The position numbers and the translations under genes were made by a program. This document shows, one piece after another, positions 8,227-38,877 of a stretch of DNA of 64,000 bases. Origin of the DNA: Paenarthrobacter ilicis (GTDB lineage: Bacteria > Actinomycetota > Actinomycetes > Actinomycetales > Micrococcaceae); the NCBI RefSeq assembly GCF_016907545.1, contig NZ_JAFBCD010000001.1:868001-932000 (forward strand), written 5' to 3'. Each line of letters starts with the position of its first letter. Positions within the stretch are counted from its first letter, which is position 1. The notes below the pieces were generated by a model. It saw nothing but the letters and a program-made list of their open reading frames with translations, made no database searches and had not been told where the DNA came from.

Positions 8227-8229
8227 GGC

Positions 8230-9663: not shown

Positions 9664-9693
9664 GTGAAGATGTCCTTTTCGCTGGTGTGACGG

Positions 9694-10176: not shown

Positions 10177-10245
10177 GGGGGTCAACTCCAATTCCGGTAT
10201 CGGGTGCGGTTGTGGTGGCGTAGCTCCCGCCAACTCCCCATTAGC

Positions 10246-10273
10246 TATCGGCCGCGCCGGCGCCGGGGTTAGG
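10246..10273 (-). promoter_or_regulatory. sigma-28-type promoter of flgN-flgK-flgL-fliW
   Basis: On the minus strand: CCTAAC (10273-10268), a 15-base spacer, then GCCGATA (10252-10246). This matches the GCCGATAA -10 of FliA-class promoters and recurs ahead of the other flagellar operons here. It is back-to-back with the fliC promoter. Confidence 0.85.
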
Positions 10274-10306
10274 CGGCGGGGCCCCTGAATCTTTACGCAG
10301 GAATTT

Positions 10307-10335
10307 CCTAACGGGTCCGCAGTGGCCGGTCGATA
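10307..10335 (+). promoter_or_regulatory. sigma-28-type promoter of fliC
   Basis: CCTAAC 10307-10312, 16-base spacer, GTCGATA 10329-10335. One base off the GCCGATA consensus and one base longer in spacing than the sister sites. Transcription would begin near 10343, just before the GGA hairpin of the flagellin leader. Confidence 0.82.
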
Positions 10336-10348
10336 GTGCTCTGTGACG

Positions 10349-10362
10349 GCCCACGGATGGGC
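10349..10362 (+). promoter_or_regulatory. probable CsrA-binding hairpin in the fliC leader
   Basis: GCCCA-CGGA-TGGGC: a 5-bp stem, extendable by one G-U pair, presenting GGA in a 4-base loop, the classical CsrA target shape. A second GGA pair lies in the ribosome-binding site (ATGGAGGAA, 10385-10393), about 30 bases downstream. One CsrA dimer could bridge both and hide the start, as known for Bacillus hag. Confidence 0.7.
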
Positions 10363-10398
10363 TGTCGCACCTTAAGTCCACATCATGGAGGAAACAAC

Positions 10399-11235
10399 AT
10401 GGGCATGCAGATCAACAACAACCTGATGGCAAACAACGCGTACCGCAACTTGAACGCCACGCAGGACAACCTGTCCAAGTCGATGGAGAAGCTCTCCAGC
10501 GGCCTGCGCATCAACCGTGCTGCGGACGACGCAGCCGGCCTTGCCATTTCTGAAGGCCTCAAGTCCCAGGTGAGCGGCTCCGCGGTTGCCGCACGTAACG
10601 CCCAGGACGGCATCAGCCTCATCCAGACCACTGAAGGTGCCCTCAGCGAGGTCCACTCCGTACTGCAGCGCATGCGCGACCTCGCAGTCCAGGGTGCCTC
10701 CGACACCAACAACACGGCAGCACGCGATGCCATCAAGGACGAAGCCGATTCGCTGGGCAAGGAGCTGGACCGCATCACGCAGTCCACCAACTTCAACGGC
10801 ATCGACCTGCTCAAGGGCGGTTCGAAGAACATCCAGGTTGGTACCGCCGGTACTGCCAACGACACCATCGCCGTCAACCTTGGCGACGTGGCAACGGCTG
10901 CCGGCACCCTGTCCTCGGCCACTGGCGCAACCGGTTTCGATGTCACCACCAACGCCGCTGCCCAGACCACGATCACGGCTATCGACGCAGCGATCACCAC
11001 GGTTTCGGCACAGCGCTCGGACCTCGGCGCCAACCAGAACCGCCTGGACCACGCGATCAAGACGCTGAACGTCTCCGGCGAAAACCTGCAGGCCGCACAG
11101 TCCCGCATCGCCGACACGGACATGGCAGCCGAAATGGTCAAGTACACCAAGGCCAACATCCTGTCCCAGGCCGGCACTGCCATGCTGGCCCAGGCAAACC
11201 AGTCCGGCCAGGGTGTCCTGTCCCTCCTGCGCTAA
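10399..11235 (+). CDS. fliC: flagellin
   Basis: A 278-residue flagellin with the two conserved ends: N-terminal INNNLMANNAYRNLNATQDNLSKSMEKLSSGLRINRAADDAAGLAIS and C-terminal ENLQAAQSRIADTDMAAEMVKYTKANILSQAGTAMLAQANQ ending in VLSLLR. The variable centre is short, as in many Gram-positive flagellins. ATG 10399 follows GGAGGAA. No second flagellin is in the window. It has its own promoter and a CsrA-type leader, and is followed by a strong hairpin before fliD. There are no cysteines. Confidence 0.98.
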   Translation: MGMQINNNLMANNAYRNLNATQDNLSKSMEKLSSGLRINRAADDAAGLAISEGLKSQVSGSAVAARNAQDGISLIQTTEGALSEVHSVLQRMRDLAVQGASDTNNTAARDAIKDEADSLGKELDRITQSTNFNGIDLLKGGSKNIQVGTAGTANDTIAVNLGDVATAAGTLSSATGATGFDVTTNAAAQTTITAIDAAITTVSAQRSDLGANQNRLDHAIKTLNVSGENLQAAQSRIADTDMAAEMVKYTKANILSQAGTAMLAQANQSGQGVLSLLR

Positions 11236-11265
11236 GCCTTCACGGTTTTTAGACGCATGAGCCTG

Positions 11266-11301
11266 CGCCGGCCGGCCGGGACCCGTCCTGGCCGGCCGGC
11301 G
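11266..11301 (+). terminator. hairpin terminator after fliC
   Basis: Perfect 12-base arms CGCCGGCCGGCC (11266-11277) and GGCCGGCCGGCG (11290-11301) with a 12-base loop. There is no T-run, common in high-GC actinobacteria. It separates the abundant flagellin message from fliD and would allow only partial read-through. Confidence 0.75.
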
Positions 11302-11341
11302 TCGGACACTTCGTACAACGAGCCTTCCGGAAGGGGCACGC

Positions 11342-12724
11342 GTGGGAACTGCGATTGACGGCCTTGTCAGCGGCCTCAAAACCACCGATCTGATCAACTC
11401 GTTCATGTCGGTCGAGGCACTGCCGCAGACCCAGCTCAAGACCAAGCTGGCGGCCAACCAGACCATCATTTCCACGCTGCAATCCTTCAATACCAAGCTG
11501 ACGGCATTGAAGGACCTTTCCGTGGCAGGCTCGGCTGCCGGTGCGCTGAACCTTTTCACCGCAAGCAGCAGCGCACCTTCCATCACGGCAAAGACCACGA
11601 CGGCGGCCTCTGCCGGATCGATCGATCTGACAGTCACGCAGTTGGCCCAGACCCAGGTCAACGTCACTGCTGCAATGACCGCTTGGCCGGCCGGCGGCGG
11701 TGTGCCTGACCGGCTCACGATTGTCGATTCCACGGGTAAGAAGACCGAGGTTGTCCCTGCGGGAACATCCTTGGATGACGTGGTTTCGGCCATCAACGCA
11801 GCCTCTGCCGGTGCGCATGCCGTGAAAGTCCCGGCGGGCAACGGGACTTACCGGCTGCAGCTCACAGCCACCACCCCAGGGGCGGCCGGTGCGTTTACCG
11901 CCTACCGTGGCACCCCCGCGCAGGTGGGTGATGGCACCGCAGTGGACCTGGTGAGCGAGGCGGGTGCCGCCGTCGTGAAATCCGCCCAAGACGCCCAAGC
12001 GACGCTGTACGCCGGCACTGCCGCCGCGCAGGTCCTGACGTCCGGCAGCAATACCTTCCAGGATGTCCTTCCCGGTGTCTCCATCACGGCGTCGGCTGTG
12101 ACGGCGGGTCCGGTCACGGTGACTGTTGCGAGCGACGTTGCCGGGACCACCAAGAAAGCCGAGGACCTGGTCAAATCGGTCAACGACGTCCTGGGGTTCA
12201 TTGCCATCTACTCTGCGGTGTCAAAGACCACTGATTCCAAGGGCGCCTCCGTGCCCAAGGCCGGGATTTTCACGGGCAACAGCACGGTCCGCGCGGTCAA
12301 CGACCAAGTTCTGGCTGCACTGTCCCGGCCCATCGCCGGGAAGTCTCCCGCCGAGTACGGCATCAACATCACCAAAGCTGGCGACTTCACCTTCGACGCC
12401 GACAAGTTCGCCAAGTCACTCGCCGCTGATCCCGTGGCCACCCAGGCAGCCGTCCAGGGACTCGCGGCACGGCTCGCCGACGCCGCCACGGCAGCCTCGG
12501 ACCCTTACAAGGGCGCGGTGTCCGGGCTCATCAAGGGCCGCGAATCCGAAGTCAGGGATCTCGGCAACAGGATCGCGGACTGGGACCAGCGCCTCATCAC
12601 CCGCCGCGCCACGCTGCAGTCGGTCTACACCAACATGGAGGTTGTCCTCGGCGGCCTCCAGTCCCAATCGGCCTGGTTGTCCGGTCAAATTTCCAGTCTC
12701 TCGAAGCAGTCCTCAGGAGAATAA
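11342..12724 (+). CDS. fliD: flagellar filament cap protein FliD (HAP2)
   Basis: A 460-residue FliD: N-terminal AIDGLVSGLKTTDLINSFMSVEALPQTQLKTKLAANQTII and C-terminal IADWDQRLITRRATLQSVYTNMEVVLGGLQSQSAWLSGQISSL with the coiled-coil ends needed to stack in the filament cap. Start GTG 11342 after GGAAGGGG. It overlaps fliS by one base (TAATG). No promoter of the CCTAAC type precedes it, so expression probably depends on read-through past the fliC hairpin or on an unrecognised promoter. Confidence 0.95.
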   Translation: MGTAIDGLVSGLKTTDLINSFMSVEALPQTQLKTKLAANQTIISTLQSFNTKLTALKDLSVAGSAAGALNLFTASSSAPSITAKTTTAASAGSIDLTVTQLAQTQVNVTAAMTAWPAGGGVPDRLTIVDSTGKKTEVVPAGTSLDDVVSAINAASAGAHAVKVPAGNGTYRLQLTATTPGAAGAFTAYRGTPAQVGDGTAVDLVSEAGAAVVKSAQDAQATLYAGTAAAQVLTSGSNTFQDVLPGVSITASAVTAGPVTVTVASDVAGTTKKAEDLVKSVNDVLGFIAIYSAVSKTTDSKGASVPKAGIFTGNSTVRAVNDQVLAALSRPIAGKSPAEYGINITKAGDFTFDADKFAKSLAADPVATQAAVQGLAARLADAATAASDPYKGAVSGLIKGRESEVRDLGNRIADWDQRLITRRATLQSVYTNMEVVLGGLQSQSAWLSGQISSLSKQSSGE

Positions 12725-13161
12725 TGGCACTCCGCGCCCAGCAAATTTCCCGGTACAACGACGACGCTGTCCTTTCCGCGCCTCCAGCACGGTTGCTCAC
12801 CATGCTCTACGACAGGCTCTTGTTGGACCTCAAGCGCGCCCAGCTCGCCCAAGAGGGCAACACGTGGGACACGGCCCGCGAAAACCTGCTGCACGCCCAG
12901 GCCATTGTGACTGAGCTGCGTTCCTCGCTGCGGACGGACGCCTGGGACGGCGCGGAGTCATTGGCAAGCATCTACGACTACTGTCTTGAAGCCCTGATAG
13001 GCGCCAATATTTACCGCGACGTGGACCGTACCAAGGAATGCGTCGAACTCCTTGAGCCGTTGCGCCAAGGCTGGCACGAGGCCGCGGCAGCACTGTCAGC
13101 ACATGCCCCGGTTCCCACGTCCGCACCCGTTGCCAGTGGCAGGGCCCTTGGAGTCGCTTGA
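12724..13161 (+). CDS. fliS: flagellin export chaperone FliS
   Basis: A 145-residue FliS. It contains the conserved opening ISRYNDDAVLSAPPARLLTMLYDRLLLDLKRAQLA, with the YxxxxxxxxSPxxLLxMLYDxxL pattern of the family, and later NIYRDVDRTKECVELLEPLRQGWHEA. It binds the C-terminal tail of flagellin to prevent early polymerisation. A Pro/Ala-rich tail of about 20 residues follows the normal four-helix bundle. It overlaps fliD at the start and the small FliT-like gene at the end. Confidence 0.95.
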   Translation: MALRAQQISRYNDDAVLSAPPARLLTMLYDRLLLDLKRAQLAQEGNTWDTARENLLHAQAIVTELRSSLRTDAWDGAESLASIYDYCLEALIGANIYRDVDRTKECVELLEPLRQGWHEAAAALSAHAPVPTSAPVASGRALGVA

Positions 13162-13432
13162 GGCCTGGGCCGGGATCCTGGACGGTTTCGAGCGGGACAT
13201 TGCCCTGGCTGTCTCCGGTGGGGAGGTTCCGTCGTGGACGCCCCCGCTGGAGGTGGGGCCACTGCCCGCAGCCTTGGCTGACCGCGCCCGAAGGGTCCTT
13301 GATGCCCAAGCGGACGCGGTCGCCATGGTTGCGGGGTTGAAGCACGACGCCGGCACGCAGCTCGGTGCCATCGACGCCGTGCGATCGGGCGCGGGCCCGG
13401 ACCGGCCGTTATTGCTCGACGTTCGCGGCTAG
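13103..13432 (+). CDS. small helical protein in the FliT position
   Basis: A 109-residue frame starting inside fliS (ATG 13103); GTG 13136 (VAGPLESLEAWAG) is an equally good start and gives 98 residues. The protein is predicted helical with SLEAWAGILDGFERDIALAV and LADRARRVLDAQADAVAMVAGLKHD. Its place after fliD-fliS and its size are those of FliT, the FliD chaperone, but sequence resemblance is weak and the call rests on position. It ends head-on with the M20 gene, their stop codons overlapping. Confidence 0.6.
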   Translation: MPRFPRPHPLPVAGPLESLEAWAGILDGFERDIALAVSGGEVPSWTPPLEVGPLPAALADRARRVLDAQADAVAMVAGLKHDAGTQLGAIDAVRSGAGPDRPLLLDVRG

Positions 13433-14655
13433 TCGGAGGCCCCGGCGCCGAGGAATTCAAGTGCCGCCGTAGCCATGGCCTTCGAACCGTGGGCCAGCGT
13501 CGGCTGGATGACCGGTGCGAAGTAGGGGGAGTGGTTGGACGGAACATCGGGGAGCCTGCCGGTGGTTGCCCACTCCTGGAACAACGCCGGGTCCGCACCG
13601 CCAAGGAACCAGAACACCAAGGGAGCATCGGCAGCCTTCGCCAGCGCTCCGACGTCCTCGCTGCCGGACACCGGGCCGGGATCGATGATGTGTCCTTCAC
13701 CGAAAGCAGTCTGGAATGCGGCCTTGACCCGTGCGGCGGCCGCTTCATCATTGACCGTCAACGGGAAGTGTTCTTCATAGACGAATTCCGGATCCTTGGG
13801 GGCACCGGATGCGGTCGCCTCGCTCTTGACGATCCGTTCAATGGAGCCCAGCACCTTGTCCCGGGTTGCGTCGCTGAAGGACCGGACACTCAGTCCCAGG
13901 CTCGCGGTCTCGGGGATGATGTTGTTCTTGGTACCGGAATGGATCTGGCCCACCGTTACCACTGCAGAGTCGCTGGCGGCGAGTTCCCGGGACACGATTC
14001 CCTGCAAACGGACGGTGGCGGCAGCTGCCATGAAGACAGGATCAACGGTGGTCTCGGGACGGGAACCGTGGCCGCCACGCCCATGCAGGATCACGTTGAG
14101 GGAATCGGCTGAGGCCATGGTGACGCCGGCGCGCACGCCGAACCAACCGGCCGGAAAAGGCGCCACGTGTTGGCCCAGGACGACGTCCGGCTTGGGAACG
14201 CGCTCATACAGACCATCCTTGACCATGGTCTGCGCCCCACCGCCCCACTCCTCTGCGGGCTGGAAGACTGCGATGAGGGTGCCCTGCCATTCCTGCTTCC
14301 GGCCGGCCAGTGATTCGGCCGCGCCCACCAGGCACGTCACGTGGACGTCGTGCCCGCAGGCGTGCATCACGGAGACGTCATTTCCTTCAGGGTCCACGCC
14401 GGCTGCCGTGCTTGCATAGTCCAGGCCAGTGGCCTCCTTGACCGGCAGGGCATCCATGTCCGCACGGAGCATGACCACCGGCCCAGGGCCGTTCTCAAGG
14501 ACACCCACCACCCCGGTCTTGCCCACATTGCGATGCACGGTGAAGCCAAGGTCTTCCAGGTGTTGGGCTGCGATGCCGGACGTCCGGACTTCCTGGAAGG
14601 AGAGTTCAGGGTTCGTGTGCAGGTCTTTGTAAAGCTCTTCGAGGTCAATCGTCAT
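13429..14655 (-). CDS. M20-family amidohydrolase
   Basis: A 408-residue metallohydrolase of the hippurate hydrolase/IAA-amino-acid hydrolase group (M20D). Zinc-binding motifs are present: HACGHDVHVTCLVGAA, FQPAEEWGGGAQTMV with the catalytic Glu pair, a dimerisation-domain His in GRGGHGSRPETTVDP, and C-terminal NHSPYFAP. It would cleave an N-acyl or N-aminoacyl amide bond; substrate unknown. It is on the minus strand inside the flagellar cluster, between the fliC-fliS block and the flgB operon, with no visible flagellar role. Confidence 0.9.
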   Translation of the reverse strand: MTIDLEELYKDLHTNPELSFQEVRTSGIAAQHLEDLGFTVHRNVGKTGVVGVLENGPGPVVMLRADMDALPVKEATGLDYASTAAGVDPEGNDVSVMHACGHDVHVTCLVGAAESLAGRKQEWQGTLIAVFQPAEEWGGGAQTMVKDGLYERVPKPDVVLGQHVAPFPAGWFGVRAGVTMASADSLNVILHGRGGHGSRPETTVDPVFMAAAATVRLQGIVSRELAASDSAVVTVGQIHSGTKNNIIPETASLGLSVRSFSDATRDKVLGSIERIVKSEATASGAPKDPEFVYEEHFPLTVNDEAAAARVKAAFQTAFGEGHIIDPGPVSGSEDVGALAKAADAPLVFWFLGGADPALFQEWATTGRLPDVPSNHSPYFAPVIQPTLAHGSKAMATAALEFLGAGASD

Positions 14656-14760
14656 GAATCTGCCCTTTTTTCGTTCGACGCCGTAGGTTTCGCCAGTCTA
14701 TCCACACGAAAATATGCGCCGGCTGGGAAAACCAGGGCACAAAATAAGTCCGGAAGTTTT

Positions 14761-14789
14761 CCTAACGTGCTTTCCAACCCGGCCGATAA
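14761..14789 (+). promoter_or_regulatory. sigma-28-type promoter of the flgB operon
   Basis: CCTAAC 14761-14766, 15-base spacer, GCCGATAA 14782-14789: the best match in the window, with the full consensus -10. It serves a basal-body operon, not only late genes. The predicted start near 14796 gives a 65-base leader. Confidence 0.87.
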
Positions 14790-14797
14790 GTGTTGCT

Positions 14798-14834
14798 GAG
14801 CATGGATCGCTCGATGCATGGCCACGGATTGGCC
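14798..14834 (+). promoter_or_regulatory. two GGA hairpins in the flgB leader, probable CsrA sites
   Basis: First GAGC-ATGGATC-GCTC (14798-14812), then GGCCA-CGGAT-TGGCC (14820-14834). Both display GGA in the loop, 22 bases apart, directly after the predicted transcription start. The second closely resembles the fliC leader hairpin. They suggest that CsrA also controls the basal-body operon. Confidence 0.55.
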
Positions 14835-14860
14835 TTGGGACACCAGCAGGTGAGGACTTT

Positions 14861-15202
14861 GTGCTTGAATCCGTGACTTCCGCCGCCTTGGCCAGCGCCT
14901 TGGACGCGCTCTCCCTGCGCCAGCGGACCATCGCCAACAACATCGCGAACGTCAACACTCCCAATTACCAAGCCAAGAGGGTCTCTTTCGAAGATCAACT
15001 GGCAGCCTCCGTGCGTTCCGGCGACGGCCATGCCAACGCAACGGTTGCTCCCTCCGAGGAACCCACCCGGACCGACGGAAACAACGTCAATCTGGACACC
15101 GAGACTCTGTCCAACATCGACACCGTGCTGCGCTACCAGTTCGCTTCGCGGGCAGCTGCCGGTGAATTCACCTCCCTGCGCACGGCCTTGAGGACCAACT
15201 GA
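14861..15202 (+). CDS. flgB: flagellar basal-body rod protein FlgB
   Basis: A 113-residue proximal rod protein. The N-terminal ALASALDALSLRQRTIANNIANVNTPNYQAKRVSFEDQL carries the rod-protein signature (ANNIANVNTPNY). Start GTG 14861 follows GGTGAGGA; the frame is open further upstream, but that would begin within the promoter. It overlaps flgC by one base and opens the long basal-body operon flgB-flgC-fliE-fliF-fliG-fliH-fliI-fliJ. Confidence 0.95.
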   Translation: MLESVTSAALASALDALSLRQRTIANNIANVNTPNYQAKRVSFEDQLAASVRSGDGHANATVAPSEEPTRTDGNNVNLDTETLSNIDTVLRYQFASRAAAGEFTSLRTALRTN

Positions 15203-15594
15203 TGACCTTCGACGCAATAGGTATCGCCGGTTCCGCACTGACTGTCCACCGCAAGTGGTTGGATGCGGTCTCGGACAACCTCGCCAACATGAACAACGCA
15301 TCCCGAACGGATGGCCAGGCCTTCCGCGCCCGGTACATCGAAGCAGCCGAGGGAAACAACGGCGACGGCGTCTATGTCAAAAGCACTCCTTTGGGCAATG
15401 GTGAAGGCCGGATTGTTTACCAACCCGACCATCCCTTGGCCGATGCCAACGGCAATGTCCGGTACCCGGACATTGACATGGCTGAGCAAATGGGGACCCT
15501 GATCATCGCCCAGCGCGGCTACCAGGCCAACGCCCAGGTGGTTGACCGGGCACGCGAAACCTACTTGGCCGCCCTTGAGATAGGAAAATCCTGA
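15202..15594 (+). CDS. flgC: flagellar basal-body rod protein FlgC
   Basis: A 130-residue rod protein with N-terminal IGIAGSALTVHRKWLDAVSDNLANMNNASRTDGQAFRAR and C-terminal VRYPDIDMAEQMGTLIIAQRGYQANAQVVDRARETYLAALEIG, the two helices that pack in the axial core. It assembles with FlgB above the MS ring. Length is normal (134 in enterics). Joined to its neighbours by one-base overlaps. Confidence 0.96.
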   Translation: MTFDAIGIAGSALTVHRKWLDAVSDNLANMNNASRTDGQAFRARYIEAAEGNNGDGVYVKSTPLGNGEGRIVYQPDHPLADANGNVRYPDIDMAEQMGTLIIAQRGYQANAQVVDRARETYLAALEIGKS

Positions 15595-15893
15595 TGTCCC
15601 TCGGCCCGATTACCGCGATCCAAGGCGTGAGCGGCACTGGCTACGCGAGCCCCGCAACGCCGGCAACTACCGGTGCCGACTTTGGCGCCGCCCTGACTGG
15701 CGCCGTCGACAATCTGCAGTCCCTGCAGTCAACGTCCAAGGAACTGGCAGTATCCGCGGTAACCGGCAACCTCGACGACATTCACCGGGCCACCCTGGCC
15801 TCGACGCGGGCCCAGGTCACTTTTGAACTGGTGGCCGCCGTCCGCAACAAGGGCATTGATGCGTTCAACGAGATCATGAGGATGCAGGCCTGA
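15594..15893 (+). CDS. fliE: flagellar hook-basal body complex protein FliE
   Basis: A 99-residue FliE, the adaptor between the MS ring and the rod. The conserved C-terminal half is clear: LQSLQSTSKELAVSAVTGNLDDIHRATLASTRAQVTFELVAAVRNKGIDAFNEIMRMQA. The N-terminal half is less conserved, as usual. Starts at ATG 15594, overlapping the flgC stop, and itself overlaps fliF. Confidence 0.95.
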   Translation: MSLGPITAIQGVSGTGYASPATPATTGADFGAALTGAVDNLQSLQSTSKELAVSAVTGNLDDIHRATLASTRAQVTFELVAAVRNKGIDAFNEIMRMQA

Positions 15894-20930: not shown

Positions 20931-21589
20931 GCATGACCGATGCCATTGGGCGGATTCAGAGCATCGAGTCCCAGCTGCAGCAGTTGGCCCAGGGGGCCAG
21001 GACTTCCACGGCGGTTTCTTCGGGTTCCTCGGCGGCTTCGGCTGCCGACGCTGCGTCCTTCGCCTCTGCCCTGAGCAGCGCCATGGGGACCTCATCCTCC
21101 TCGTCCTCTTCGCTGGTTTCCGGGGTGGGTGCTGCGGGCTTGGGCTCGCTGTTGCCCGCTGCTGGAAGTACGACGGCGACCGCTGGGGCGGCGGCCGTCG
21201 GCACCAGCGGCGGCGCCGTTTCGGGTGACGCCGTGGTGGCAGCTGCCAAGAAGTACATCGGCGTGCCCTACGTGTGGGGTGGCACCAACCCGGCGGTGGG
21301 CATGGACTGCTCCGGATTCGTCCAGAGGGTGTTCAAGGATCTTGGGGTGGAGTTGCCGCGCGTGGTCAGCGACCAAATGCAGAAGGGCACACCTGTCGCA
21401 TCACTGGCGGAGGCGAAACCCGGGGACCTCCTGGTCAGCTACGGCGGCGAACACATCTCCATCTATCTGGGCAACGGCAAGGCCATCGACGCTCCCGTTC
21501 CGGGCCAGACCATCCAAATCCGCGACGCATGGGAGAAGTACTCCAACCTGACGTCGATCCGCCGGATTGTTCCGGCAGGGAGTGCGTGA
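20927..21589 (+). CDS. NlpC/P60 peptidoglycan hydrolase, probable FlgJ counterpart
   Basis: A 220-residue protein. Residues 1-100 are Ser/Ala/Gly-rich without signal peptide; residues 105-220 are an NlpC/P60 endopeptidase with VAAAKKYIGVPYVWGGTNP, the catalytic Cys in MDCSGFVQRVF and the catalytic His in GGEHISIYLG. Lying between fliJ and fliK in the operon, it probably opens the wall for the rod, as the muramidase half of FlgJ does in proteobacteria, and lacks a Sec signal because it would leave through the flagellar gate. Role inferred from place and catalytic motifs. Confidence 0.88.
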   Translation: MSMTDAIGRIQSIESQLQQLAQGARTSTAVSSGSSAASAADAASFASALSSAMGTSSSSSSSLVSGVGAAGLGSLLPAAGSTTATAGAAAVGTSGGAVSGDAVVAAAKKYIGVPYVWGGTNPAVGMDCSGFVQRVFKDLGVELPRVVSDQMQKGTPVASLAEAKPGDLLVSYGGEHISIYLGNGKAIDAPVPGQTIQIRDAWEKYSNLTSIRRIVPAGSA

Positions 21590-23166
21590 TGCAGGCGGTT
21601 GGTGGATTTGCTGCCGGGGGATTCATGGGTGGTCCTGCCGGTGTGGGAGCTCCTGCTGGCGAGGTGCGAGGTGCCGCTTCTTCGGGTGGGGGTGCCTTCG
21701 ACGCCGTGATGGCTTCCGAAATGGATTCGGGGACCTGGCTCGATGATGGCCATGTCGATGCCCCGCTGCACAACCGACGTCTCCTTCCGTCTAACGCGCA
21801 GGAAGTCGTCGAAACGGATGCCCAGTTCGATGCTTCGCTGCCCATTCGATGGTTGGAGCCGCCTGTTTCGCAGGGAACCCCCGAAACGGGCGCGACGGGT
21901 GCTTCGGACGGATCGCCGGCTGGATTGGCCGGCATCGCTGGTGCTAATGGTGCTGAGGTTTCCTTGGCTTCGGATGGGGCTGGGGCTGGGGCTGGGGCTG
22001 GGGTTGGGGCTGGTGGCGCGGGTGAAGCCATGCTGCTGGGCGAGTCCGCACGTCCAGGCACGGCCGCTGCCAAGGACGACGCCGCCGCCCTTGGTGGGGA
22101 TCTGGTGGTGACTGCGTCCGCCGGGCACATGGACTTCGCCCCTTACGCTGCCTCGCTGCCCACTCGACGCTTCCTGCCGTCCAACCCGCAGGGAATCCCC
22201 GAAACGGACGGGCCTGTGGCTGGCTCCTGGCTGGAGGGTTCTGTGGCTGTAGGGGCGACCGCTGGTACTCAGACGGGTGTTGCTGCCGGCAGTGATGCCC
22301 GCGACGCCGTGGTTTCGAAGGTCGCGGGCGCTTCCGATGCCGGGGGTAAAGCGGCCGCCCGGACCGTACCGGTTTCAGCTCCGACCCCTCCGGCTACTCC
22401 CACTGCCCATTTAGATGGCTCGCTGCACACTCGACGCTTCCTACCATCGAATCCGCAGGGAACCGTCGAATTGGGCGCGGTCCCACCCCCCGCCGCACAA
22501 CCCGCGCCAGCCCTGCCCGCGCCAGCACAACCCGCGCCAGCACAACCCGCGCCAGCCCTGCCTGCGCAGCCCGCTCCGGTGCAGCCCGCGTTTGCACTCG
22601 AGACCACGCCTACCCTGCAGCCCGCGCCCCTGCCGCCCGCACCGGTCCTGCCCACTCCGGCTGCCCCCGCACCCCAACAGCCCCTCACGCATCAGCTCGC
22701 CACGCCCCTGTTCTCGCTGGCGTCGGCCGGGCTCGGGGAGCACGTGATGACGCTGCGGGTCTCCCCGGATGACCTTGGCCCCCTCACCGTCCGGGCACAC
22801 ATCGATGGCACCGGCGTGCGTATTGAACTGTTCGCTCCCGGTGATGCGGGCAGGGAGGCAGTGCGGCACATCCTCCCGGAACTCCGGCGGGGGCTTGAAG
22901 AATCCGGCGCCAGCTTGAGCCTCTCCTCGCACAACAGCCCGGCCGACTCCGGCAAAGACGGCCAAGGCACGGGGCAGGGGCACGGCCATGGCGCAGGGCA
23001 AGGAACGGGGCTTGGCGCGGGGACTCGTGATCCCGAGGCCCAGCCCCGACGCTTCGGTGACACCACAGGGAACGGAACCGATGACCAACCGCACCAACCC
23101 CGCCAGCTGCCACCCGGCGTCGTACATGACCCCAGCAGTCCACACCGCCTGGACATCCTCGTCTGA
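21589..23166 (+). CDS. fliK: flagellar hook-length control protein FliK
   Basis: A 525-residue protein of low complexity ending in the conserved FliK C-terminal domain: LASAGLGEHVMTLRVSPDDLGPLTVRAHIDGTGVRIELFAPGDAGREAVRHILPELRRGLEESGASLSLS (about residues 380-450). The N-terminal ruler region contains four copies of a motif near SLPTRRFLPSNPQGxxET, an Ala/Gly run and a long Pro/Ala run. It measures hook length and switches export specificity by binding FlhB. ATG 21589 overlaps the previous stop. Low-complexity DNA here is prone to slippage. Confidence 0.92.
   Translation: MQAVGGFAAGGFMGGPAGVGAPAGEVRGAASSGGGAFDAVMASEMDSGTWLDDGHVDAPLHNRRLLPSNAQEVVETDAQFDASLPIRWLEPPVSQGTPETGATGASDGSPAGLAGIAGANGAEVSLASDGAGAGAGAGVGAGGAGEAMLLGESARPGTAAAKDDAAALGGDLVVTASAGHMDFAPYAASLPTRRFLPSNPQGIPETDGPVAGSWLEGSVAVGATAGTQTGVAAGSDARDAVVSKVAGASDAGGKAAARTVPVSAPTPPATPTAHLDGSLHTRRFLPSNPQGTVELGAVPPPAAQPAPALPAPAQPAPAQPAPALPAQPAPVQPAFALETTPTLQPAPLPPAPVLPTPAAPAPQQPLTHQLATPLFSLASAGLGEHVMTLRVSPDDLGPLTVRAHIDGTGVRIELFAPGDAGREAVRHILPELRRGLEESGASLSLSSHNSPADSGKDGQGTGQGHGHGAGQGTGLGAGTRDPEAQPRRFGDTTGNGTDDQPHQPRQLPPGVVHDPSSPHRLDILV
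21756..22475 (+). repeat. four-copy motif repeat in fliK
   Basis: Diverged copies of a roughly 60-base unit at about 21756-21817, 21829-21889, 22149-22207 and 22413-22475. They encode LHNRRLLPSNAQEVVET, LPIRWLEPPVSQGTPET, LPTRRFLPSNPQGIPET and LHTRRFLPSNPQGTVEL. Copies 3 and 4 are closest. Spacing is irregular, so this is a dispersed duplication rather than a tandem array. Confidence 0.85.
21975..22011 (+). repeat. GGGGCT hexamer run in fliK
   Basis: About six consecutive GGGGCT-type units encode the GAGAGAGVGAG stretch. Runs of four G at 6-base intervals could fold into a G-quadruplex on the coding strand and are slippage-prone, although in-frame units of 6 keep the frame. Confidence 0.8.
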
Positions 23167-23184
23167 CGTGAAGGAGAGACAACC

Positions 23185-23613
23185 ATGACCATTCCCGCAA
23201 TTGCGGCCAACAACGGCGTCGGATCGGGGGAGGCTGTTCGCACTCCCGTGAAGACCATGGATTCCGAAGTCTTCATGTCCTTGCTGGTGACGCAGCTGAG
23301 GTACCAGGATCCCAGTGCGCCCATGGACACCAACCAGATGATGAGCCAGTCGGTGCAGCTTTCCATGATGGAGAAGATGACCGAGCTCACGGCTGGCTCC
23401 AAGGAGAGCTTTTCCCTGCAGATGCGCACCGCGGCGGCACAAATCATTGGCACCGAGGTGAGCTACACGTTGGCCGACGGCACCAAAGGGACGGGCGTTG
23501 CCAGTGCAGTGTCCTTTGCCGGCGGTGTTCCGACCGTGACCGTGGGGACCGCCAAGGTGCCGTTGGACCTGATCACCGGAATGACCGCAGCAGTGCAGAA
23601 AAACGCCTCCTGA
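23185..23613 (+). CDS. flgD: flagellar hook scaffolding protein FlgD
   Basis: A 142-residue hook cap protein. The diagnostic segment is DSEVFMSLLVTQLRYQDPSAPMDTNQMMSQSVQLSMMEKMTEL. The C-terminal part (IGTEVSYTLADGTKGTGVASAVSFAGGVPTVTVG) corresponds to the FlgD Tudor-like domain, while the FnIII-like domain of longer FlgD proteins is absent, as in many Gram-positives. ATG 23185 follows AAGGAGAGA. Confidence 0.93.
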   Translation: MTIPAIAANNGVGSGEAVRTPVKTMDSEVFMSLLVTQLRYQDPSAPMDTNQMMSQSVQLSMMEKMTELTAGSKESFSLQMRTAAAQIIGTEVSYTLADGTKGTGVASAVSFAGGVPTVTVGTAKVPLDLITGMTAAVQKNAS

Positions 23614-23659
23614 ATTAACCCCAGACTTACCCCGAACCAACCCGAAGAAAGGCAACACC

Positions 23660-24832
23660 ATGCTCCGTTCGCTGTACTCCGGAATTTCCGGCCTCCGAGC
23701 CCATCAGGCAATGCTTGACGTCACCGGCAACAACATCGCCAACGTCAACACCACCGGCTACAAAACCTCGTCCGCCCAGTTCCAGGACACACTGTCGCAG
23801 ATGACCCAAGGCGCGTCCGGCCCGCAGCAGGAGGTGGGTGGCTCGAACCCGGCCCAGATCGGACTCGGCGTCCGGGTGGCCGGTGTCAGCACCAACTTCG
23901 GCCAAGGTTCCTCGCAGAGCACCGGCCGCGGCACTGACCTGATGATTTCCGGCGAGGGCTTCTTCGTCACGGGCAAGGGCACGCAGCAGTACTACACCCG
24001 CGCGGGCAACTTCCAGATGGACGCGGCCGGCCGCTTGGTCAGTCCCGACGGCGGCATCCTCCAGGGCTGGAGCGCCACCAACGGTGTGGTCAACACAGGC
24101 GGAGCCACGGGGCCCATCACGTTGTCCCCGGATGCCACAGCTCCGGCAGTTGCGACTACCAACGCGGTGCTCGGCGGCAACCTGCCCTCGGACGCGGCCA
24201 CTGGCACGTCCGTTGAGCGCCAGGTCAAGGTGTTCGACGCCAATGGAGCTGAGCGCAGCCTCACATTGACCTTCAGCCGCACGGCCACTGGCTGGAATGT
24301 GGCGGGCGCGGACGCCAATGGCGCCACGGGTGCTTCCACTCTCACTTTCGCCAACGGTGCGTTGACGTCCGGCGGGACCATGACCGTTGGCGGGATCACC
24401 GTGGCCATGGGCGCAGTCACCGGTTTCGCGCAGATGAGCACCCTGGCCGTCGGCAGCCAGAACGGCTCCGCGGCCGGCCAACTTGAGTCCTTCACGCTGG
24501 CCGGAGACGGCTCCCTGATCGGATCCTTCAGCAACGGCGCCAAGGGGGTCCTTGCCCGCGTGGCGCTGGCCCGCTTCACCAACCCCGAAGGCTTGGAGAA
24601 GGCCGGCGGCTCCACTTACGTTGCCACGGCAAACTCGGGTGCGGCCCAGCTTGGCGTAGCCGGTGAAGGAGGGCTGGGCTCGCTGACGTCCGGTTCGCTG
24701 GAGATGTCCAACGTGGACCTGTCCCAGGAATTCACCAACCTGATTGTGGCGCAGCGTGGTTTCCAGGCCAACGCCCGCATCATCACCACCTCCGACGAAG
24801 TACTGCAGGAACTGAGCAATCTGAAGCGCTAA
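23660..24832 (+). CDS. flgE: flagellar hook protein FlgE
   Basis: A 390-residue axial protein beginning LRSLYSGISGLRAHQAMLDVTGNNIANVNTTGYKTSSAQFQDTLSQ and ending LEMSNVDLSQEFTNLIVAQRGFQANARIITTSDEVLQELSNL. The middle contains the Gly/Thr-rich hook domain. It is the only large axial protein of hook/distal-rod type in the window: no separate FlgF or FlgG is seen. Last gene of the flgB operon, separated from the next flagellar gene by the hipBA insertion. Confidence 0.95.
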   Translation: MLRSLYSGISGLRAHQAMLDVTGNNIANVNTTGYKTSSAQFQDTLSQMTQGASGPQQEVGGSNPAQIGLGVRVAGVSTNFGQGSSQSTGRGTDLMISGEGFFVTGKGTQQYYTRAGNFQMDAAGRLVSPDGGILQGWSATNGVVNTGGATGPITLSPDATAPAVATTNAVLGGNLPSDAATGTSVERQVKVFDANGAERSLTLTFSRTATGWNVAGADANGATGASTLTFANGALTSGGTMTVGGITVAMGAVTGFAQMSTLAVGSQNGSAAGQLESFTLAGDGSLIGSFSNGAKGVLARVALARFTNPEGLEKAGGSTYVATANSGAAQLGVAGEGGLGSLTSGSLEMSNVDLSQEFTNLIVAQRGFQANARIITTSDEVLQELSNLKR

Positions 24833-24863
24833 TAGCCCACGGATGGTGGCTGCCTTCCGCTTC

Positions 24864-26138
24864 CTAGGTGGCCGCCGGCATCTGGCCGGCGAGGGCACGG
24901 CGGGCCGTCCTGCCCGCAAGCAGGTCATTGGCCCGCGTTGAGACGAGTTCGCTCAGGAAGCCAATCTCTTCGATGGGGGGCTCCAAGGCCGCCGCGGTGG
25001 CCACCGACTCGAGCACGGTGGCCGCCGTCGCCTTTGCATCCTCTGTGTCCATGCCCCATGAGACGCCTTCGCGGATGAGGTGTTCCAGGGTGAGGTAGTT
25101 GAGCAGTGATTGGCCGCCCACCACATGGCCGGCGTTGTAGCTCGGGGCGTAGAGCAGCAGGGTAGGGGCGACGTCGTAGAGAGGAGCGAGCATCACTTCG
25201 CCGCCGTCCCGGAGCATGACGGAGTAATTTTTCGAATGCGCGTCCCCGTTGCCGATCACAAGGTTGAAGGTAATGGCCCGCAGCAGCCCGCGCCGGAATT
25301 CCCGGTCGTCCCTGCTGTGCGGTGCTGCAGCCTTCGCGAGCTGGGTCAAACGGGACGGTGGGTTTGTGGAGGCTTCGTACTTGGAGGCGCTTGCCAGCGC
25401 CAGGGCTTGGGTGAAATCTTCCTGGTGGAGTCGACCGCCATCCGGAGTCCGGTCGTACCTGGCTACGACGATCGCCTCGCGCGACCCAAACGTCTCCAGA
25501 TGTGCTTCCGCGGCGGGCAGGCCGGCCGAAGCGGCCACTTTCAGCGCCCAGTTTTCGGAAGCGAGCAGGTGCGGGACCGGCGAATCCAGAGGCTCCGGCT
25601 TGATGATGTGCGTCGACACCGTCCCCCGGCCCGGCCAGGCCCAGCCGTCACCGTGCCGGCTCAACAGCACCTTGGACTGGATGCCACCAAGCGATGCGGT
25701 GATCGCGAGGTCATCGGGCAGGTCCCAGGTCGGCAGAGCCTCGACGACGCCGACGACTTCGTCAGCGGTCATCGGGTGGAAGTCGGTGGGGCCGTTCGGT
25801 GACGTGTCTGCCGGGAGCGCTTGGACCGCGCCGGCACAGTCGGCGCCAAGGACGGACAGCAGCCCCAGGGCATCCGGGGTGGACAGCCCGTTCTCCGACG
25901 CGAGGTGGGAGCGCACCTGGCCCTCCGGCAAGAGTCCGTCGAAGTAGTTGTACACCGCCGTTCCGTCGATTTTCTTCTGGCTCACCGGCAGTGAGAGGGA
26001 CAAGAGGATGGAGGAGGAGCCGTATTCAGCAACGATGTCCGTGTCGTACTGGAAGGACATTCTGAGCCCGTGTCCGCTCAGAACACCAACGTGCTTCCCA
26101 TGCAGGAACACCTCGAGGCTCTTGCTCCGCGGGCTCAC
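24864..26138 (-). CDS. hipA: HipA-type serine/threonine kinase toxin
   Basis: A 424-residue HipA. The N-terminal subdomain begins LEVFLHGKHVGVLSGHGLRMSFQY; the kinase core shows FDGLLPEGQVRSHLA, ITASLGGIQSKVLL, catalytic GNGDAHSKNYSVML and the metal-binding Asp in LAPLYDVAPTLL. HipA kinases stop growth by phosphorylating translation factors such as glutamyl-tRNA synthetase; the target here is unknown. It overlaps the antitoxin gene by 4 bases. On the opposite strand to the flagellar genes around it. Confidence 0.95.
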   Translation of the reverse strand: MSPRSKSLEVFLHGKHVGVLSGHGLRMSFQYDTDIVAEYGSSSILLSLSLPVSQKKIDGTAVYNYFDGLLPEGQVRSHLASENGLSTPDALGLLSVLGADCAGAVQALPADTSPNGPTDFHPMTADEVVGVVEALPTWDLPDDLAITASLGGIQSKVLLSRHGDGWAWPGRGTVSTHIIKPEPLDSPVPHLLASENWALKVAASAGLPAAEAHLETFGSREAIVVARYDRTPDGGRLHQEDFTQALALASASKYEASTNPPSRLTQLAKAAAPHSRDDREFRRGLLRAITFNLVIGNGDAHSKNYSVMLRDGGEVMLAPLYDVAPTLLLYAPSYNAGHVVGGQSLLNYLTLEHLIREGVSWGMDTEDAKATAATVLESVATAAALEPPIEEIGFLSELVSTRANDLLAGRTARRALAGQMPAAT

Positions 26139-26383
26139 GGTTTGACCTGCAGCTTCGAGAATCTCGGGACCAGGGCGACGTCGCGGCCGAGCACCCGGAT
26201 GGCCTCCATGGCGACGACTACGGAGACCGCTTCGCCGTGCTCGAGCCGGACGATAGTCCGGCGGGCGGTGCCGAGCCGGTCTGCGAGTTCCTGCTGGGTC
26301 AGGGAAGCTTCCTTGCGGGCATCACTGATGGCCCGCCCCAAGGAAGCGGCATTCACGGCCCGGTAAAACGGCGTTTGTGACAT
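26135..26383 (-). CDS. hipB: HipB-type antitoxin, XRE family
   Basis: An 82-residue Cro/CI DNA-binding protein: LGRAISDARKEASLTQQELADRLGTARRTIVRLEHGEAVSV. It would bind and neutralise HipA and repress its own operon. ATG 26383 (MSQTPFYRAVNA) is chosen because a longer frame would extend into the first operator. Two palindromic operators lie immediately upstream. Overlap with hipA ensures co-translation. Confidence 0.93.
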   Translation of the reverse strand: MSQTPFYRAVNAASLGRAISDARKEASLTQQELADRLGTARRTIVRLEHGEAVSVVVAMEAIRVLGRDVALVPRFSKLQVKP

Positions 26384-26412
26384 ATATTGATCATACGCGG
26401 TTGACGTCATTT

Positions 26413-26469
26413 TGTGCCAAATATTGCACATTCAAGCCGAAAGTGGTTATGTGCCATATCTGGCACATA
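26413..26469 (-). promoter_or_regulatory. two operators of the hipBA promoter
   Basis: O1 at 26413-26430: TGTGCCA-AATA-TTGCACA. O2 at 26448-26469: TATGTGCCA-TATC-TGGCACATA, perfect 9-base arms. They share TGTGCCA-N4-TGGCACA and are 35 bases apart. A minus-strand TATGAT (26395-26390) could be the -10, putting O1 on the -35 region. Autoregulation by HipB and conditional cooperativity with HipA are inferred from the family. Confidence 0.75.
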
Positions 26470-26490
26470 GCACAGTGCTCCGGACGCCTT

Positions 26491-26520
26491 CCTAACGTCC
26501 CGCGCTTCCCGGCCGACAGT
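26491..26520 (+). promoter_or_regulatory. sigma-28-type promoter of the flbD-motA-motB operon
   Basis: CCTAAC 26491-26496, 15-base spacer, GCCGACAGT 26512-26520. One base off the -10 consensus. It restores flagellar transcription downstream of the hipBA block, which runs the other way. Confidence 0.8.
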
Positions 26521-26564
26521 AGGGGACAGCACCGCCTCCAGCCACAGCCACCCAGAAACGGCCC

Positions 26565-26882
26565 ATGATCGTTGTCACCCGCCTGAACGGCACACGCTTC
26601 GCCGTGAATCCGGACATCCTTGAACGGATCCACGAGAGTCCGGACACCCATTTGGTGACGCTCGACGGCGCCGCTTACGTTGTGCGCGAATCATTGGCTG
26701 AGGTGGTGGAGCTGATCGCAAACTATCGCGCGGGTGTGCTTCGCCGCGCCCACGACCTTCCAGCCGTGACGGGTTATCCGCTGAGCCTGGTCCGGTCCCC
26801 GGAACCGGAGGAACCGAGGGAGCCGGGGGAGTCCCCGGATCCAGGCCACGCACCAGAACCCACCCACCCGAACGGAAGGTAG
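26565..26882 (+). CDS. flbD: FlbD-family flagellar protein
   Basis: A 105-residue protein whose first 60 residues are a FlbD domain: MIVVTRLNGTRFAVNPDILERIHESPDTHLVTLDGAAYVVRESLAEVVELIANYRAGVL. The remainder is a Pro/Glu-rich tail (PEPEEPREPGESPDPGH) not part of the family. FlbD proteins sit next to motA in many Gram-positive and spirochaete clusters, and their exact role is unclear. Note that this is not the Caulobacter FlbD sigma-54 activator. Confidence 0.88.
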   Translation: MIVVTRLNGTRFAVNPDILERIHESPDTHLVTLDGAAYVVRESLAEVVELIANYRAGVLRRAHDLPAVTGYPLSLVRSPEPEEPREPGESPDPGHAPEPTHPNGR

Positions 26883-26885
26883 TCC

Positions 26886-27704
26886 ATGACAATCGTCGGT
26901 CTGCTGCTGGCCTTTGCATCCGTGGTGGCCATGGTCACCCTGGAACATGCCAACCTCATGTCGCTGCTCCTGCCCGCGCCCATGATCCTTGTTTTTGGTG
27001 CCACCATTGCTGTGGGACTGGCCGGAAACACCCTCCAGGATGTGCTCCAGGCCTTCAAGGATGCCCCCAAGGCCTTCCTCGGCAAGCCTGCAAAGCCCAC
27101 GGAGAGCATTGACGAGCTGGTCCGGCTTGCCGAGAAGGCCCGCAGCGACGGCCTGCTGTCCTTGGAGGAGGAGGCCAACAACGCCAAGGACCCGTTCCTG
27201 CAGCGCTCGCTGCAGAACATCGCCGACGGCACGGACGCCGAGGAATTGCGCCTCCTGATGGAGGACGAGATCGACACCAAAATGCGCGCCGATCACGTGT
27301 CCTCCAAGTTCTTCGCAGCGCTGGGCGGGTACGCCCCCACCATTGGCATCATCGGTACCGTGGTCTCGCTGACCCACGTTCTGGAAAACCTCTCCTCGCC
27401 TGACCATTTGGGGCCGATGATTGCCGCGGCCTTCGTGGCCACCCTTTGGGGCCTGCTGTCCGCGAACTTCATCTGGCTGCCGTTGAGTGCCAAGCTCAAG
27501 CGCCTGTCTGAGCTGGACGTCGAACGCATGACGCTGCTGATGGAAGGTCTTCTGGCAGTGCAGAACGGAACCCAGCCGATGCTGCTTGCGGAAAGGCTTC
27601 GCGCCATGGCGCCGGCGGACACGAAGGGCAAGTCGAAGGAAACCAAGGACAAAGCGGACGACGGCGGCAAGCCCGGCAAGCTTTCGGCGTCCAGGGCAGC
27701 ATGA
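26886..27704 (+). CDS. motA: flagellar stator protein MotA
   Basis: A 272-residue stator subunit with four membrane segments, two at the N-terminus (VGLLLAFASVVAMVTL; MILVFGATIAVGLAG) and two after the cytoplasmic loop (YAPTIGIIGTVVSLTHVLENL; MIAAAFVATLWGLLSANFIWLPL). The loop carries the charged residues facing FliG. The C-terminal 35 residues are Lys/Asp-rich and extra. Overlaps motB by 4 bases. Confidence 0.95.
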   Translation: MTIVGLLLAFASVVAMVTLEHANLMSLLLPAPMILVFGATIAVGLAGNTLQDVLQAFKDAPKAFLGKPAKPTESIDELVRLAEKARSDGLLSLEEEANNAKDPFLQRSLQNIADGTDAEELRLLMEDEIDTKMRADHVSSKFFAALGGYAPTIGIIGTVVSLTHVLENLSSPDHLGPMIAAAFVATLWGLLSANFIWLPLSAKLKRLSELDVERMTLLMEGLLAVQNGTQPMLLAERLRAMAPADTKGKSKETKDKADDGGKPGKLSASRAA

Positions 27705-28522
27705 GGTCCCGCAGGAGACGGGGCTCCCAGCCCGAAGAGCACCATGTTGACGAGCGCTGGATGGCGTCCTACATGGACATGGTCACCGTGCTGATGTGCA
27801 TGTTCATTGTCCTGTTCGCCATGTCATCGGTGGACCAGGACAAATTCGAGAAGCTGCGCAATTCCCTGGCCACGGGCTTCGGCACGCAGATCAGCCAAAA
27901 GGTGGATACCGCTACCGGTGTGGTGGTCCCCGCGGAGCTTGCGGCTTCGGACGGCGAGGGATTCTCTGCACTTGATCTTGCCGTGAAGGAAGTGGACAAG
28001 CTCACTGCCCTCGAAAACGAGATGAAGGACAAGCTGGCCGCCCAGGGATTGGGCGCCAACGTGCAGTTCGACGTGGGGGAGCGCGGACTGACCGTGAAGC
28101 TGGTGGGTTCGCAGACGTTCTTCCAGCCGGACATGCCGGACTTGACCAGCCGTGCCCTCGAGATCCTGCGGACCATCGCACCCACGGTGGTGGGTTCAGG
28201 GCTTGAGGTCATGGTGGAAGGCCACGCAGCAAAGGGCATCACGCAATATGCCTCCACCTGGGAGCTCTCTGCCGCACGCTCAGTCAATGTGCTCAGGTAT
28301 TTTGTGGATGACTCCGGCATGCCACCGGCGCGGATCGGCGCGGTGGCTTTCGGCGCCGCACGGCAGGTGACGGACGATTCCACCGAGGAACTCATGGAAC
28401 TGAACCGGCGGGTGGATGTGGTGCTCCTGTCCGCCAGCCCGGAAGATGTGCGCGCCCTCATTCCGGGTGCCATCGAGGCCCAGACCAAGGAGTCGGCGGA
28501 GGCCGCCAAAGCAGCAAAATAG
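27701..28522 (+). CDS. motB: flagellar stator protein MotB
   Basis: A 273-residue partner of MotA. One membrane segment carries the essential proton-binding Asp in ERWMASYMDMVTVLMCMFIVLFAMSSVDQDKFEKL. The C-terminal OmpA-like domain binds peptidoglycan (EVMVEGHAAKG, TWELSAARSVNVLRYFV, NRRVDVVLL). The absence of obvious sodium-type features suggests a proton motor, but this is inference. FliL, which usually follows, is missing: fliM is next. Confidence 0.95.
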   Translation: MRSRRRRGSQPEEHHVDERWMASYMDMVTVLMCMFIVLFAMSSVDQDKFEKLRNSLATGFGTQISQKVDTATGVVVPAELAASDGEGFSALDLAVKEVDKLTALENEMKDKLAAQGLGANVQFDVGERGLTVKLVGSQTFFQPDMPDLTSRALEILRTIAPTVVGSGLEVMVEGHAAKGITQYASTWELSAARSVNVLRYFVDDSGMPPARIGAVAFGAARQVTDDSTEELMELNRRVDVVLLSASPEDVRALIPGAIEAQTKESAEAAKAAK

Positions 28523-28537
28523 TCGTAGCGGTAAATG

Positions 28538-28566
28538 TCTTACGTGCCACACTGACGTGCCGATAG
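28538..28566 (+). promoter_or_regulatory. sigma-28-type promoter ahead of fliM
   Basis: TCTTAC 28538-28543, 15-base spacer, GCCGATAG 28559-28566. The -35 differs from CCTAAC by two bases; the -10 is good. It lies in the short motB-fliM gap and gives a start near 28573-28575, on the first plausible GTG of fliM. Confidence 0.65.
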
Positions 28567-38869: not shown

Positions 38870-38877
38870 CGAGCGAT

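Follow-up and report, generated by a model that had tools for sequence, protein, structure and literature searches.

We analyzed a 64,000-nucleotide stretch of the Paenarthrobacter ilicis genome, hereafter the window, which carries one flagellar cluster, and describe here the promoters and mRNA leaders at the heads of its flagellar genes. The genome is a single contig of 3,973,023 bases (3.97 Mb), of which the window covers positions 868001-932000 with a G+C content of 63.6%; all coordinates below are positions in the window. The nearest named relatives of its FliI in our collection are Arthrobacter strains, at 85% identity. A minus-strand fliW-flgL-flgK-flgN run (6959-10233) is followed on the plus strand by the fliC-fliD-fliS, flgB to flgE, flbD-motA-motB and fliM to csrA runs, where the main part of the cluster ends at 36924, and fliA is set apart. 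Several genes were named from order and translation alone, and operon limits were inferred from orientation and small gaps. Six genes are central to what follows:

6959..7342, minus strand: fliW, last gene of the flgN run (Pfam FliW 69.2 bits, cut-off 25; NCBIfam FliW models under their cut-offs)
10399..11235, plus strand: fliC, flagellin (Pfam Flagellin_N/C)
14861..15202, plus strand: flgB, GTG start, heading the rod, MS-ring and hook run (NCBIfam TIGR01396 FlgB, 83.3 bits against a cut-off of 59.05)
28575..29471, plus strand: fliM, GTG start, heading the co-directional run from fliM to csrA (Pfam FliM)
36682..36924, plus strand: csrA, last gene of the fliM run (Pfam CsrA 88.1 bits; NCBIfam equivalogs barely above their cut-offs; PDB relatives including 5dmb)
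44883..45824, plus strand: fliA, a FliA/WhiG-type sigma factor with an uncertain start codon (TIGR02479)

A sigma-28-type promoter box lies ahead of each of the five runs, two of which close with csrA and fliW, respectively. Fractions give the related loci in which the box is found with at most one mismatch:

10246..10273, minus strand: box of flgN-flgK-flgL-fliW, CCTAAC-N15-GCCGATA (38/49)
10307..10335, plus strand: box of fliC, CCTAAC-N16-GTCGATA (45/58)
14761..14788, plus strand: box of flgB, CCTAAC-N15-GCCGATA (65/75)
26491..26518, plus strand: box of flbD-motA-motB, CCTAAC-N15-GCCGACA (40/48)
28538..28565, plus strand: box of fliM, TCTTAC-N15-GCCGATA (37/43)

A preliminary description of this DNA had proposed these five sites, and all of them are where it placed them. 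The pattern CTAAC-N14..17-GCCGATA, allowing one mismatch, has exactly five matches in the window, the five sites themselves, compared to a chance expectation of 0.30 (mean of 20 first-order Markov sequences). Spacers of 15-16 are typical of sigma-28 promoters. The five -10 elements, GCCGATA or one change from it, agree with the sigma-28 (FliA/WhiG) consensus, given as -35 TAAA and -10 GCCGATAA (PMC8325347), and the -35 elements read CTAAC or CTTAC rather than TAAA. The whole-genome search that the same description called for, run as the pattern CTWAC-N15-GCCGAYAG (which excludes the N16 fliC site), returned three exact matches, all flagellar. At one mismatch the genome held 11 matches, 4 of them flagellar, against 20 for a reversed control pattern, so no larger regulon stands out and we rejected a sigma-28 regulon extending beyond the flagellar locus.

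Comparison across 80 FliI loci, mostly from Micrococcales, placed the box at the same five positions. With the strict pattern at up to one mismatch, 162 of 171 matches lay less than 350 base pairs ahead of the five head genes (flgB 52, fliC 32, flgN 29, fliM 26 and flbD 23); the other nine fell at fliA (two), flgK, fliH, fliD and fliS (one each) or none of these genes (three). A looser rule, which accepts CTAA, CTCA or CTTA as the -35 and counts per gene start, found a box at up to one mismatch at 225 of 273 starts of the five heads but at only 5 of 1122 internal gene starts; flgL (1/2) and fliA (1/30) were kept out of both tallies. Cellulomonadaceae loci and many more distant genomes have CTCA-like -35 elements. 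The flgB and fliM boxes are conserved as well as that of fliC. As the preliminary description had it, one sigma-28 box thus serves the early flgB and fliM as well as the late fliC and flgN operons; it is kept in related loci, and the enteric pattern of sigma-28 boxes mainly at late operons is not seen. We infer, with high confidence, that FliA reads all five boxes, although a shared box is compatible with further promoters. One compared record, titled Vibrio cholerae 35D (L065), has FliI, boxes and leaders resembling Arthrobacter loci such as L057, and is a mislabelled or contaminated assembly.

For the sigma factor gene at 44.9 kb the best family is TIGR02479 (FliA/WhiG), at 121 bits (E 5.9e-35). 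As had been suggested earlier, it is probably of the FliA/WhiG type: it is the strongest of seven matches to this model in the genome, though below the curated cut-off; the second and third were compared with it and belong to the RpoD and SigF types, and the remaining four score under 25 bits. The claim that every flagellar operon carries the box held for the flgN, fliC, flgB, flbD and fliM units but is not clearly borne out at fliA itself. With the strict consensus at up to two mismatches we found no box near fliA in the window. A -10-like GCCGATAG lies upstream at 44763-44770 with a poor -35 (CTTCG, N16), and has three mismatches by the strict consensus and one by the looser rule; on the other strand these bases are codons of the neighbouring flgN-like gene. 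We rejected a clear box ahead of fliA, which was present in 1/30 loci at up to one mismatch by the looser rule and in 2/42 in another count (L035 and L037, both Curtobacterium, spacer 14). With no clear box at fliA, the boxed operons probably still stand below one transcriptional step.

We located fliA in 42 of the related loci, the rest being truncated or lacking the gene at this place, and in 38 of these 42 its position is between flgN and fliC. In the window it is about 8 kb from the cluster (36924-44883), with a transposase-like (rve) open reading frame in the gap. A second FlgN-like gene (44282-44812, minus strand) is divergent from fliA, the usual layout of relatives; it scores 26.2 bits, under the Pfam FlgN cut-off of 30.5, and is 39% identical over 122 amino acids to the flgN at 9694-10233 (minus strand). 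Palindromes of the form GTCCTC-n-GAGGAC occur upstream of fliA in 6/43 regions, window included, and CCCC-n-GGGG palindromes are also conserved there (examples in L014-L017, L026, L054 and Curtobacterium loci such as L035); these are candidate operators for fliA activation. A search for FlgM (PF04316) found none in the genome, and the same search found FlgM in 3 of 14 controls, namely E. coli, B. subtilis and T. maritima. A 2023 phylogenomic study reports that actinobacterial classes without FlgF/FlgG also lack FlgM (PMC10746217).

The leaders downstream of two of the boxes contain elements that resemble binding sites of the RNA-binding protein CsrA, with the core ANGGA:

10342..10369, plus strand: fliC leader hairpin, CsrA-type site 1, with its ANGGA core ACGGA at 10353-10357 (leader minimum free energy -25.9, z -2.87; stem with covariation)
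10385..10391, plus strand: ATGGAGG, an ANGGA overlapping the fliC Shine-Dalgarno, CsrA-type site 2 (GGA in 58/58 aligned leaders, first A in 57/58)
14797..14813, plus strand: flgB leader hairpin 1, TGAGC-ATGGATC-GCTCG, with its ANGGA core at 14802-14806 (nearly invariant in aligned leaders; absent from the predicted minimum free energy fold of the window leader)
14820..14834, plus strand: flgB leader hairpin 2, GGCC-ACGGATT-GGCC, with its ANGGA core at 14824-14828 (conserved; covarying across the class)

The flgB leader thus has two tandem short hairpins, GAGC-ANGGA..-GCUC and GGCC-ANGGA..-GGCC, and the fliC leader has one, GCCC-ANGGAU-GGGC, plus an ANGGA inside UCANGGAGGA, its Shine-Dalgarno. 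In alignments of 73 flgB leaders and 58 fliC leaders, both including the window, the G, G and A never vary at any of the four sites, and the first A departs in a single row at each of two sites. The second position varies freely: C52 T15 G4 A2 and C53 T15 G5 in flgB hairpins 1 and 2, C39 T19 in the fliC hairpin, and C44 T7 A7 in the fliC Shine-Dalgarno site. The two GG of the flgB leader are 21-27 nucleotides apart, a spacing that suits a CsrA dimer. A near-invariant A-G-G-A around a free N matches the published CsrA/RsmE loop rule, ANGGAN (PMC7652899).

Under a strict rule (stem of at least 4 pairs, loop of 6-7, ANGGA in the loop), 73 of 75 flgB leaders had at least one such hairpin and 70 of 75 at least two, compared to 0.98 and 0.04 in shuffled leaders, and 56 of 59 fliC leaders had one, compared to 0.68. 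Control leaders gave 0/33 for flgN, 0/33 for fliM (a stretch that is partly coding) and 11/48 for flbD, and random 80-nucleotide windows gave 1.6%. Some Cellulomonas flbD leaders (e.g. L058, L060 and L067) carry an ANGGA hairpin of the GGGCCC-ACGGA type, and the flbD operon may belong to the CsrA-type set in some lineages.

Compensatory change in the stems was tested against shuffled alignments. The fliC stem gave a covariation score of 0.283, compared to 0.102 in shuffles, of which 0/500 scored as high, and had 53 cells changed on both sides versus 18.6. Stems of the flgB leader are near-invariant in related loci, so covariation there is weak, and pair types numbered 12 versus 8.4 (0/500). 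Across the class, flgB hairpin 1 stays GAGC/GCUC whereas hairpin 2 varies with compensation: both-side changes numbered 11 versus 4.2 (0/1000) and pair types 5 versus 3.2 (70/1000), on 32 of 39 model-aligned rows, in an alignment that leans to structure and contains two rows (L125 and L126) that are not real leaders. Together, the strand-asymmetric loop and its free N speak for an RNA bound by CsrA, and we think it very likely that CsrA binds both the flgB and the fliC leader. A search of Rfam identified no known RNA family at either leader; two sub-threshold matches elsewhere in 9000-46000 were taken as chance. A start-codon switch in flgB, in which the hairpin-1 arm GAGCAN pairs with the first six coding bases, was also considered. 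All six pairs form in 48/67 leaders but in only 10/35 cases at class level, and there hairpin 1 is often kept in the absence of the pairing, so the switch does not explain the conservation and is possibly a lineage-specific detail.

The fliM operon has a third kind of 5' end. Transcription from sigma-28 promoters starts 5-8 nucleotides after the -10, and at 40 of the 41 fliM boxes an in-frame start codon follows the -10 by 8-9 nucleotides; this count includes L073 and 13 rows whose first in-frame start is at 0, all of which offer a further one at 9. The window's own GTG, at 28575, is 9 nucleotides after the -10. From these distances the fliM mRNA is probably leaderless or nearly so. Three operons read by one sigma factor would therefore begin in three ways: leaderless, with tandem CsrA-type hairpins, or with a CsrA-type hairpin and a blocked Shine-Dalgarno.

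We sampled 296 genomes of at least 90% completeness from the class and searched them for the same components. FlhA was present in 37 of them, and csrA in 37/37 of these versus 4/259 others; fliW was found in 37/37 FlhA genomes, 1/4 of the genomes with csrA alone and 0/7 others tested. The four genomes with csrA and no FlhA are G025, which also has fliW, G106, G234 and G295; candidate explanations are flagella remnants, assembly gaps or another use of CsrA. Under a looser hairpin rule (stem of at least 3, loop 5-8), at least one ANGGA hairpin lay ahead of flgB in 36 of the 37 FlhA genomes and at least two in 27, and the strict rule gave 33 and 24. Random 150-nucleotide windows from the same loci gave 9.8% and 1.4% (looser) and 4.3% and 1.0% (strict).

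A model of the fliC leader matched 31 of the 37 genomes, starting 40-100 nucleotides before fliC in 26 of 30 loci checked; in L178, L180 and L182 it does not start there, the best fliC copy of L178 being another than the one that follows the match, and L163 shows no fliC. Three genomes (G148, G064 and G056) have three or four matches each, perhaps reflecting several flagellins, each with a CsrA-type leader. Within the P. ilicis genome the flgB-leader and fliC-leader models each hit a single place at the threshold used, in front of flgB and fliC, respectively. The flgB-leader model was less specific: at 1e-3 it matched 118/296 genomes, most without FlhA, and we rejected its E-values as a criterion. 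Among its best 30 loci, 19 lay ahead of flgB; all checked matches of at least 32 bits did so, and below that score true and false matches are mixed, so for the other 18 flagellated genomes we found flgB through its protein.

Other features of the window lie between the flagellar runs. A HipBA toxin-antitoxin pair (24864-26431, minus strand) is inserted between flgE and flbD, and palindromes such as TGTGCCATATCTGGCACA at 26450-26467, directly upstream of the flbD box, are probably hipBA operators; as this is the simpler reading, we rejected a flagellar operator at the 26.40-26.48 kb palindromes. The stretch between the fliC run and flgB holds an M20-type amidohydrolase gene (13429-14655), which is encoded on the minus strand, opposite to its flagellar neighbours. 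CheW was not found in the genome.

Based on these observations, the reading we favor, and consider probable, is a one-sigma regulon with CsrA-marked leaders, in which order and dose are set on the mRNAs. A FliA-type sigma factor, itself expressed mainly from another promoter that would be the transcriptional entry point, would transcribe five units from one box (CTAAC-N15/16-GCCGATA), so that early and late mRNAs are made together and assembly order and dose are decided at the mRNA level. At fliC, CsrA on the hairpin and the Shine-Dalgarno site would block flagellin translation until FliW, freed upon flagellin export, lifts the block, as in B. subtilis hag. At flgB, CsrA would act through the tandem hairpins just past the predicted 5' end and far upstream of the start codon, and fliM, encoding C-ring and export-gate functions in its run, would be translated from a probably leaderless mRNA with no CsrA-type site. 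CsrA would thus restrain filament synthesis while acting on rod and hook synthesis, replacing the missing FlgM checkpoint. The preliminary description had suggested that the regulon lacks a transcriptional hierarchy and relies on translation control instead. The second half gains a physical counterpart in the CsrA-type hairpins on the flgB and fliC leaders, alongside the absence of a detected FlgM in this genome; the first half goes too far, given the step at fliA that probably remains above the operons.

Several observations weigh against this proposal. The ANGGA sites of flgB, the second of which begins 37 nucleotides before the start codon in the window, lie off its Shine-Dalgarno, so that CsrA could act there in either direction. 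Folding predictions for the flgB leader of the window open hairpin 1 (leader z -0.96), hairpin 1 exceeds a probability of 0.5 in just 24 of 67 flgB leaders, and covariation in the 73 related leaders is 0.078 versus 0.063 shuffled (9/500). For fliC, two of five measures are not above shuffles (both-side changed pairs 121/500, pair types 78/500), and kinship among the sequences inflates covariation scores generally. Across the class, four genomes carry csrA without FlhA, one flagellated genome (G013) has no flgB hairpins, and 6/37 have no fliC-leader match. The 44.9-kb sigma factor scores 121 bits against the NCBI curated cut-off of 189.6. Finally, a fliA box at up to two mismatches appears in 11/30 loci, compared to 0-18% for internal genes with more than 10 cases; some of these may be flgN antisense codons, and weak fliA autoregulation in some lineages is possible.

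Among alternatives, the one that survives best, which we nevertheless consider unlikely, is that CsrA acts on fliC alone, in a B. subtilis-type homeostasis, and that the flgB hairpins are a 5'-end stabiliser or the site of another factor. Of the two leaders only that of fliC has an ANGGA over its Shine-Dalgarno, the flgB sites lie far upstream of the flgB start, and hairpins at a 5' end can by themselves protect an mRNA. A mere stem, however, would not require that A-N-G-G-A, its N variable, be retained in both flgB loops (with a single exception among 73 rows); the dimer-compatible GG spacing and the lack of such hairpins in the flgN and fliM leaders also count against it. Less likely still is a hidden transcriptional hierarchy, in which extra promoters or activators free flgB or fliM from FliA and the boxes are auxiliary. 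Other promoters are compatible with the sequence, and fliA, having no clear box, presumably has some other promoter, but the flgB and fliM boxes are conserved like that of fliC, and the position of the fliM start just past the -10 ties its translation to the boxed promoter. A reading of the flgB inverted repeats as DNA sites to which a transcription factor binds just downstream of the start site is very improbable: they do directly follow the promoter, and the hairpin 1 stem is near-invariant as DNA, but the conserved centre is strand-asymmetric, with ANGGA on the mRNA strand, and fliC shows this loop again, on a stem that covaries. The lack of an Rfam family at these repeats favors neither side.

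Under the favored one-sigma, CsrA-marked reading, the sign of control at flgB can be considered by analogy. Because the flgB sites lie near the predicted 5' end, as in E. coli flhDC, stabilisation or activation by CsrA is at least as likely as repression. A more tentative extension, which we hold to be possible but doubtful, is that flagellated Actinomycetia replaced a FlgM-checked cascade with an RNA-level one in which CsrA and FliW order the mRNAs with opposite signs on rod and filament: fliM would be translated freely, flgB switched by CsrA, and fliC held off until FliW is freed. If this is true, a backlog of unexported flagellin would promote the building of more export machines, and the whole class would control its flagellum mainly at the mRNA level. 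For the favored reading, the shared boxes and the CsrA-type hairpins of flgB and fliC suggest that assembly order is set on mRNAs rather than promoters.

The proposed system combines parts of several known ones. In Actinoplanes missouriensis, Jang et al. in 2016 reportedly mapped flagellar transcription starts to one sigma-28-like promoter, CTCA-N15-17-GCCGAA, and proposed simultaneous assembly, and Hashiguchi et al. in 2020 are said to have described three FliA-family sigma factors there. By these reports, the two systems share a single sigma-28-like promoter type for flagellar genes and differ in the -35 (CTCA there, CTAAC here) and in the number of FliA-type sigma factors (three there, one here); the CTCA-like -35s of Cellulomonadaceae and distant genomes resemble the box reported for Actinoplanes. 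To our knowledge, CsrA-type leaders have not been reported for Actinoplanes. Its flagellar genes are described as directed by WhiG-like flagellar sigma factors (PMC8325347), so that a one-sigma actinobacterial flagellar regulon was already known.

In B. subtilis, the hag leader has two CsrA sites, one of them over the Shine-Dalgarno (PMC7652899). Consistent with the CsrA-FliW-flagellin homeostasis of that organism, csrA and fliW lie together with flagellar genes here, and the fliC leader has two ANGGA sites with one over the Shine-Dalgarno, so the hag model fits fliC in the sequence features tested. What differs is the extra tandem site pair on the early flgB operon and FlgM, found in B. subtilis and not here. 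The E. coli flhDC leader has two CsrA sites near its 5' end, through which CsrA stabilises the mRNA (PMC7652899). The flgB leader likewise carries two CsrA-type sites near the 5' end predicted from the box of an early flagellar mRNA, but on a structural rod operon instead of a master regulator, and stabilisation here would be by analogy only.

A further precedent is Kineococcus radiotolerans, whose motility island contains FliA and csrA, with no flgM there or in flagellated Actinobacteria sequenced by 2008, and for whose flagellin mRNA a site like hag BS2 was predicted (PMC2587704). An actinobacterial flagellin CsrA site was thus predicted in 2008; in the available part of that paper neither promoters nor hairpins are analyzed and no element of the flgB leader is described, and it posed the control of FliA without FlgM in Actinobacteria as an open question. 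Among the papers listed by our PubMed Central searches, a set that covers few subscription journals, we found no CsrA site described on an actinobacterial flgB operon. Within this literature, what is new is a tandem CsrA-type element at flgB that much of the class retains, a fliC element with covariation, a close association of csrA with flagella, and a conserved and probably leaderless fliM. If the proposal is correct, flgB is a CsrA target of a kind that we did not find described in that literature. Tandem hairpins on the rod operon, together with a hairpin and a Shine-Dalgarno site on flagellin, would offer a precise and testable answer to the question, raised with Kineococcus, of FliA control in the absence of FlgM.

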